From Pseudomonadales bacterium (GTDB lineage Bacteria; Pseudomonadota; Gammaproteobacteria; Pseudomonadales; Azotimanducaceae), in contig JANQKS010000094.1 in assembly GCA_028281005.1 (NCBI GenBank), positions 1 to 45,608 on the forward strand: 45,608 bases of DNA, read 5' to 3'. Each line of letters starts with the position of its first letter. Within the stretch, counting starts at the first letter, position 1. A program made the position numbers and the translations under genes. The notes under the pieces were generated by a model that worked only from the letters and a program-made list of their open reading frames with translations, was not told where the DNA came from and did not search any database. Shown in pieces: positions 12,018 to 17,153 of this stretch.

Positions 12018-12041
12018 ACTCGCTTGATTAGCCGGCCTGGA

Positions 12042-12137
12042 TGGGTGATTGCCTGTTCGGGACCGCTGTGAACCCATCCTTGGGCGCTGGCGCTGCGCCG
12101 TCCTTGGCGCAGAGCCTCCCGAACAGGCAATCACCCA
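12042..12137. repeat. Composite palindromic element, copy A
   Basis: A perfect 21-base inverted repeat (12042-12062 with 12117-12137) encloses 54 bases. Inside are two smaller hairpins: CCCA-tcct-TGGG and TGCGCC-gtcctt-GGCGCA. The enclosed 54 bases match the core of the element at 16955-17047 at 47 of 54 aligned positions, but the outer stems are unrelated in sequence. It lies in the convergent gap between fimX and serB. No T-run follows on either strand, so it is not a plain intrinsic terminator, though it could still stop transcription or protect 3' ends. Confidence 0.85.
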
Positions 12138-12175
12138 CCCACGCCTACACCTTCCAAGATTCTGCAGCGTCTTCG

Positions 12176-16916: not shown

Positions 16917-16954
16917 TTGGGTCTTTAAAAGTCAGTTTGTATGCGGCCCGGCGA

Positions 16955-17047
16955 CGGGGGTGGTTTGGTCAGGACCGCTGTAAACCCATCCATGGGCGCT
17001 GGCGCCTCGCCGTCCTGGCTCGGAGCCTCCTGACCAAACCACCCCCG
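16955..17047. repeat. Composite palindromic element, copy B
   Basis: A perfect 20-base inverted repeat (16955-16974 with 17028-17047) encloses 53 bases that are the same core as in the element at 12042-12137, in the same orientation: CCGCTGTAAACCCATCC starts both apart from one base. The small CCCA-tcca-TGGG hairpin is kept; the second inner hairpin is weaker here. The outer stem is rich in GGTGG/CCACC and shares no sequence with that of copy A except the last three base pairs. It sits between parE and parC, in the 237 bases before parC. The rest of that gap shows no gene. Confidence 0.85.
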
Positions 17048-17153
17048 CCACCGGTCCTGCGCATTCAGTCATTCCAGTGTTCCTCGACCCGCTCATTGTC
17101 AGCGAATCAGCGGCAGTATCCATCAGCACCCGCCAGCTTACGATCGATCGAGC

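Follow-up and report, generated by a model that had tools for sequence, protein, structure and literature searches.

Among described genetic elements, those closest to the one analysed here are the YPAL or RU-2 repeat of about 168 bp, the Rfam family TwoAYGGAY (RF01731), which is without known function, and Ysr224, the Yersinia sRNA 224 (RF02770). YPAL is mobile, with target duplications of 3–26 bp and targets that span or adjoin dyad symmetry, and its description, in the available passages, allows that it might affect how stable upstream transcripts are (PMC2229807). For TwoAYGGAY, the consulted part of the literature carries a proposal of CsrA binding (PMC4333381). A further point of reference is a process instead of a family: template switching homogenises the arms of inverted repeats and inverts their spacers, and in bacteria it favoured transversions, according to the passages available (PMC8604942).

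The window (the whole stretch of DNA analysed, 45,608 nucleotides in length) carries two copies, A and B, which are members of a large family of folded repeats dispersed in gammaproteobacterial genomes (Table 1). As originally predicted, their cores agree, being identical at 47 of 54 alignment columns, and are closed by perfect stems of 21 bp in copy A and 20 bp in copy B; these extend to about 29 bp once mismatches and G·U pairs are permitted. The folding z-scores are −8.9 for copy A and −5.6 for copy B, and none of 200 shuffles folded as well in either case. The accompanying claim that the two stems are wholly different was too strong, with the same letter at 16 of 29 positions in the 29-nt arms of A and B. 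When copies of the genome that carries the window, hereafter the source genome, are compared in pairs, the 23 cores of 54 nt have a mean identity of 0.87; for the arms of 29 copies the corresponding mean is 0.74 over the inner 9 nt, 0.38 over the middle 15 nt (0.32 when shuffled) and 0.43 over the outermost 5 nt (0.33 when shuffled).

Table 1. Features of copies A and B in window coordinates
Feature	Positions	Strand	Basis or remark
Copy A arm, 29 bp, 3′ arm on the minus (GGA) strand	12034–12062		perfect within 12042–12062
Copy A core, two minus-strand hairpins	12063–12116	minus	folding, alignment
Copy A loop AAGGAT, second minus-strand hairpin (CAAGGATG)	12076–12081	minus	sequence and pattern count
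Copy A loop AAGGAC, first minus-strand hairpin (CAAGGACG)	12100–12105	minus	sequence and pattern count
Copy A arm, 29 bp, 5′ arm on the minus (GGA) strand	12117–12145		perfect within 12117–12137
Copy A, extent of covariance model R1	12030–12149	minus	124.3 bits; copy A in R1 seed
Copy A, weak match to Rfam RF01731	12026–12153	minus	
Copy B arm, 29 bp, 3′ arm on the minus (GGA) strand	16946–16974		perfect within 16955–16974
Copy B core, two minus-strand hairpins	16975–17027	minus	folding, alignment
Copy B loop ATGGAT, second minus-strand hairpin (CATGGATG)	16988–16993	minus	sequence and pattern count
Copy B loop AGGAC, first minus-strand hairpin (CAGGACG)	17012–17016	minus	sequence and pattern count
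Copy B arm, 29 bp, 5′ arm on the minus (GGA) strand	17028–17056		perfect within 17028–17047
Copy B, extent of covariance model R1	16942–17060	minus	113.2 bits; copy B in R1 seed

On the window's minus strand, the element folds into a stem of about 29 bp that closes two hairpins, whose loops take the form CANGGAYG or CAGGAYG (for example, CATGGATG, CAGGGATG, and CAGGACG). In all 29 parsed source-genome copies each of the two hairpins has a GGA loop, of the form ANGGAN or AGGAN; the two GGA loops are likewise present in all 93 copies parsed from Halovibrio and Halospina genomes, and the spacing between the loops is 23–24 nt in 120 of these 122 copies. Of 39 remoter copies, scored with a relaxed pattern, 32 have both loops and 7 are without one. 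In the alignment of 27 source-genome copies, both partners have changed at 27 of 30 stem pairs, covariation reaches 0.641 compared with 0.143 in shuffled alignments, and 93.9% of the cells of the whole structure pair (67.7% in shuffles). Positions 1–19 of the stem, counted outward from the core, are Watson–Crick in 544 of 551 pairs in the source genome, the defects being 4 G·U pairs and 3 other mismatches, and in 1715 of 1767 pairs in Halovibrio/Halospina, with 23 G·U pairs (18 of them at position 2) and 29 others.

The strand on which these imperfections fall is informative. Over positions 1–29 of the GGA strand, G·U outnumbers A·C by 31 to 2 in the source genome and by 75 to 6 in Halovibrio/Halospina, and at positions 20–27 G·U is tolerated there and A·C hardly, with other mismatches occurring too. 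So one-sided an excess shows that selection acts on the folded GGA strand, whether as RNA or as single-stranded DNA, and that it does so at least in the outer 10 bp; strand-biased deamination on a transcribed strand could be an added source of the asymmetry. The original prediction, which took the paired stems as a sign that a structure and not a sequence is selected or copied, is borne out to this extent.

The check that had been proposed with it, a covariance model searched against the genome and its relatives, likewise turned out in its favour. Stems were parsed in 29 of 41 source-genome copies, and alignment A1 took 27 of these, leaving out two with enlarged hairpins. Model R1, built from A1, finds the 41 copies at 74.9 bits or above on one strand of the source genome; the 27 seed copies match by construction, and the remaining rows of that search are reverse-strand echoes and two weak matches. 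BLAST of the same genome (5.1 Mb, 135 contigs) gives 46 matches at E ≤ 10, the strong ones mostly limited to the core and nearby arm. Farther afield, 22 of 116 other relatives match at E ≤ 0.001 and 43 of 273 other genomes in a class-wide sample at E ≤ 1e-6, both counts being lower bounds because these scans ran stricter filters. A pattern scan of named genomes returned 29 stretches, mostly from Halovibrio salipaludis, two records labelled Vreelandella utahensis, and Halospina denitrificans. Four Halovibrio/Halospina genomes hold 38 (G117), 44 (G118), 31 (FS, or G119), and 111 (G120) R1 matches, a total of 224 that may include a few reverse-strand echoes; the 93 copies analysed were drawn from these, with duplicate loci and two long-insert matches left out. 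Genome G087 has 30 reported matches. The generic core pattern had no match in the plasmid collection or the phage collection.

The RU-2/YPAL sequence printed in PMC2759123 carries the same core: the best source-genome core aligns to it with a local score of 32, where 300 shuffles reached at most 17. The two elements share a core of two GGA-loop hairpins, an internal rather than terminal inverted repeat and a dispersed distribution. In the four source-genome copies framed by a further outer palindrome the unit measures 156–172 bp, where that of YPAL is near 167 bp. They differ in their arms, which in the source genome vary between copies and are nearly perfect, whereas the stem printed for RU-2 is imperfect. 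If YPAL is taken to be a homogeneous 168-bp repeat, arms shared between copies would be expected of it, and in the source genome, to which the comparison of copies applies, the middle arm is hardly shared (0.38 vs 0.32 shuffled); the element is therefore filed as YPAL-like, not as YPAL. Core inversion and core swapping, described below, are not mentioned for YPAL in the available passages of PMC2229807 and PMC2759123.

Like TwoAYGGAY, all 29 parsed copies have two hairpins with AYGGAY-like loops under an outer stem, and the minus strand matches the full RF01731 model (1–168). The scores of copy A (33.8 bits) and copy B (22.5 bits) fall below the gathering cut-off of 43 bits; among 28 matches at E ≤ 10 in the source genome, two other copies exceed it (44.5 and 43.0), but neither they nor two related loci passed gathering when scanned against all of Rfam. 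Ysr224 matches copy A through the core at 29.2 bits (cut-off 70), but on the plus strand, opposite to the GGA loops. The kind of element is already known, and the present one is a YPAL-like, TwoAYGGAY-like variant with well-paired arms that drift in place. What is new, as far as our literature searches show, is the matching of arms in place, the flipping and exchange of cores, and the link between YPAL and CsrA; YPAL, TwoAYGGAY, and CsrA were not found joined in the titles and abstract openings searched, an incomplete coverage that is no proof of their being unpublished together.

Comparison of orthologous copies between genomes shows that the arms change in place and in matched pairs. At 28 loci, the inner 19 bp comprise 471 unchanged pairs, 52 changed on both sides with pairing kept, and 9 changed to unpaired, and the outer 10 bp comprise 222, 30, and 28, respectively. 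Each locus is represented by a single pair of copies, the one whose arms resemble each other most, and a locus was dropped if under 15 of its 29 arm pairs agreed or if the core registers differed, so these counts favour slowly changing loci. Ordinary hairpins in the same flanks (20 hairpins, 183 pairs), picked as perfect in one genome and shorter than the element stems, show 0 paired and 17 unpaired changes. The paired inner changes, 52 of 532 pairs (9.8%), accumulate at about the divergence of the aligned flanks, 5986 of 58,396 sites (10.3%, coding DNA included; 90% identical overall), and 29 of the 52 are isolated single base pairs. They comprise 21 transitions and 31 transversions, compared with 2987 and 2999 in the flanks. 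This ratio departs from the 2:1 expected of two independent hits under the flank spectrum (p = 1.6e-4), and is compatible with the 1:1 of one event under that spectrum (p = 0.21) and with the 1:2 of replacement by unrelated letters (p = 0.30). Arms within a genome are slightly more alike than column-shuffled ones (means 13.3–14.5 vs 12.5–13.4 of 21). The suggestion in the original prediction that the element rebuilds complementary arms when it moves came close in its idea of re-matching and missed the occasion, as the arms appear to be re-matched where they stand.

The core, too, is changeable at a fixed site. Its orientation is opposite at two loci with recognisably the same arms and flanks, namely FS L131 and H. 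salipaludis L176 versus DSM 3051 L160, and H. salipaludis L172 versus DSM 3051 L153; besides template switching, considered below, conversion or re-insertion in the other orientation could have inverted such cores. Both flanks were matched in 56 of the 59 cross-genome pairs, and in 10 of these comparisons (6 loci) the core is of another subtype, with core identity of 0.67–0.74. The left arms of DSM 3051 L150 and FS L140, for instance, agree at 25 of 25 letters, and their cores are 72% alike.

We consider it reasonably probable that these features have a joint explanation, in which a miniature non-coding element of the YPAL/TwoAYGGAY type undergoes template-switch matching of its arms, exchanges its cores and binds CsrA or RsmA. 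The replication polymerase would switch template between the arms and copy one onto the other, such that a mutation in either arm would spread to both or be erased, and the arms would drift while staying paired; some switches would flip the core. Template switching would account together for paired arm changes whose rate is close to that of the flanks, for the rarity of intermediates, and for core inversion. Core exchange calls for a second process: the core and innermost arm would pass between loci, most likely through ectopic gene conversion, and cores would in this way stay alike within a genome; the fall in identity from core to inner to middle arm fits conversion tracts centred on the core. 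The likeness to template-switch-homogenised repeats lies in arm homogenisation and spacer inversion; in the yeast repeats, the inverted spacers are a few bases long in the available passages of PMC8604942, unlike the structured spacer of about 54 nt in a dispersed repeat considered here. At many marked loci, the element would thereby preserve a natural archive of how arms are copied onto each other and spacers inverted, and covariation in such stems need not reflect stepwise compensatory selection, a point to bear in mind when covariation is used to discover RNAs among dispersed repeats.

Stepwise compensatory mutation under pure selection for RNA structure, without any special DNA process, would draw on the excess of G·U over A·C on the GGA strand, above all at positions 20–29, and on the capacity of large populations to fix double mutants fast even where single mutants are harmful. 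As a full account we hold it unlikely, because G·U pairs are scarce in the inner 19 bp (4 of 551 and 23 of 1767, as given above), because 31 of the 52 paired changes are transversions, against the two-hit expectation, and because core inversion would be left unexplained. Paired changes could also arise if other copies converted the element in full, core and both arms together, by ectopic gene conversion. The differing core subtypes at 6 orthologous loci and the graded identity from core to middle arm agree with this, as does the transition-to-transversion ratio, which fits replacement by unrelated letters and leaves some room for conversion of whole arms from donor copies. Yet no clear donor arms were found among the 93 Halovibrio/Halospina copies compared, themselves part of the 224 matches, and the 29 isolated single-pair changes among the 52 also count against it; whole-element conversion likewise strikes us as improbable.

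Other accounts concern how the element arrives and what it is for. According to one option of the original prediction, the core is inserted into existing palindromes such as terminators. A further, outer palindrome does surround 4 of 29 source-genome copies (scores 11–18, where random pairings reach 10 in 4 of 1500), YPAL targets are said to span or adjoin dyad symmetry (PMC2229807, in part), and in one same-genus genome, G009, the site of copy B is occupied by a long palindrome with a different sequence (L090, by eye). The inner arms, however, are borne by the element. Same-genus genomes aligned at the site of copy A (7) and at that of copy B (8) carry neither the element nor its arms, and several of these empty sites hold other hairpins; at site L103:5667, no long palindrome was seen by eye in two genomes without that copy; and none of the 93 Halovibrio/Halospina copies sits in a separate outer palindrome, the sole high score being a stem extension. 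Five near-identical copies in G367 (L217–L221) have identical arms, the common ends AGCAATTCCC...GGGAATTGCT (GGGAAGTGCT in one) and short target duplications of 8–9 bp, read by eye; here the element moved together with its arms. With arms that evolve in place, are identical in recent copies and are absent from empty sites, the inner palindrome is rejected as a target into which the core was inserted, and the option as a whole is very improbable; for the further outer palindrome, insertion within a target palindrome is plausible. Mobilisation of a REP/BIME-type element by a RAYT (Y1 transposase) would suit the frequent inverted pairs, all 6 source-genome pairs within 400 bp being divergent on the GGA strand by hand count, and PF01797 is present in 6 of 11 genomes searched, including FS (G119). 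It is nonetheless rejected, with a probability close to nil, on zero PF01797 matches in the source genome and in G117, G118, G120, and G111, the source genome holding 41 copies and G117, G118, and G120 having 38, 44, and 111 matches to R1. A main role as intrinsic terminator or mRNA 3′ stabiliser is favoured by the many copies near gene 3′ ends and by the possible effect of YPAL on upstream transcripts (PMC2229807, in part). We nevertheless judge it quite unlikely: no T-run follows the stem of copy A or B on reading of the sequence, as had been claimed, so that neither has the form of an intrinsic terminator, and a double-hairpin core with preserved GGA loops would be unnecessary for such a role. 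Nor does the claimed proximity to gene 3′ ends hold beyond some copies, since an open-reading-frame heuristic places 12 of 29 source-genome copies between two 3′ ends, 10 between a 3′ and a 5′ end, and 7 between two 5′ ends.

The twin GGA loops, a feature of CsrA-binding RNAs present throughout the 122 source and Halovibrio/Halospina copies and in most remoter ones, together with the CsrA genes of the host genomes, point to binding by CsrA or RsmA, in line with the proposal of Gardner and Eldai for TwoAYGGAY (PMC4333381). The spacing of the loops is one that a CsrA dimer could span, and the loop presumably matches the RsmA/RsmE consensus CANGGANG. CsrA genes occur in all 12 element-bearing genomes searched, and also in 4 of the 5 others searched, for which no element was reported. 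The GGA-strand RNA would bind a CsrA/RsmA dimer at its two loops, either as a transcript-borne site or as a sponge. The sponge RNAs CsrB, CsrC, and RsmXYZ likewise present paired GGA hairpin loops; they are single genes with many GGA sites, whereas here two sites per copy are spread over tens of dispersed copies. Relative to flanking genes, the GGA strand is sense at 35 and antisense at 23 flanks in the source genome, and sense at 80 and antisense at 103 in Halovibrio/Halospina, the latter excess of antisense giving no support for action in host-gene mRNA. More tentatively, and with the odds in our view rather against it, the element may be self-matching and self-flipping, with copies that switch the strand presenting the twin CsrA site and cores that spread, amounting to an orientation-switchable, distributed CsrA sponge. 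In either form, the proposal links YPAL, TwoAYGGAY, and a widespread gammaproteobacterial repeat, and offers one testable role, CsrA binding. Nine CsrA-family matches accompany the 30 element matches of G087.

Several observations concern individual sites. No common ends stand out in the source-genome flanks, and a conserved promoter-like or terminal motif there is rejected, the flanks showing only four weakly informative positions, at −10 and beside the stem. One copy appears to have been lost by deletion, leaving an arm remnant (L105 vs L100). The gene names serB, parC, and parE are presumptive. At the site of copy B, L090 (G009:C428:21400-21780) and L091 (G039:C173:49575-49940) hold a different palindrome centred on TGGGGTCTGACCCCA with dissimilar paired arms, by eye, which is possibly another family of fixed centre and variable arms. 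The source-genome copies L022:1250-1390 and L032:975-1112 have hairpins enlarged by an inserted palindromic stretch (CGCGAATC...GATTCGCG). The records NZ_JACHUZ010000013.1 and NZ_WMEX01000001.1, labelled Vreelandella utahensis, a name that now resolves to V. halophila, agree with Halovibrio salipaludis at about 84–93% across long parts of the compared loci and are possibly mislabelled.

In G357, loci L227/L235 contain a copy with a 49-bp perfect palindrome that ends 5 bp from an open reading frame, which we take to be lgt; the origin of the 49-bp arms of L227 was not found in the single other same-genus genome searched, which is 73–74% alike. Ten other copies parsed in G357 have arms of 28–40 bp, with 342 of 344 pairs Watson–Crick, and a stretch resembling TTGGTGGTTG recurs on the outer side of several. 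That the arms of this genome, 28–49 bp long, are near-perfect and mostly differ from one another may suggest that arm copying in places reaches into neighbouring host DNA. Close pairs are mostly divergent outside the source genome as well, with 11 divergent and 1 convergent within 400 bp among the matches listed for the four named genomes. Direct arrangements occur in G039 and G043, and G039:C56:6222-6854 and G039:C210:17449-17774 hold direct tandem copies with a period of about 207–258 bp, unlike the usual divergent pairs.
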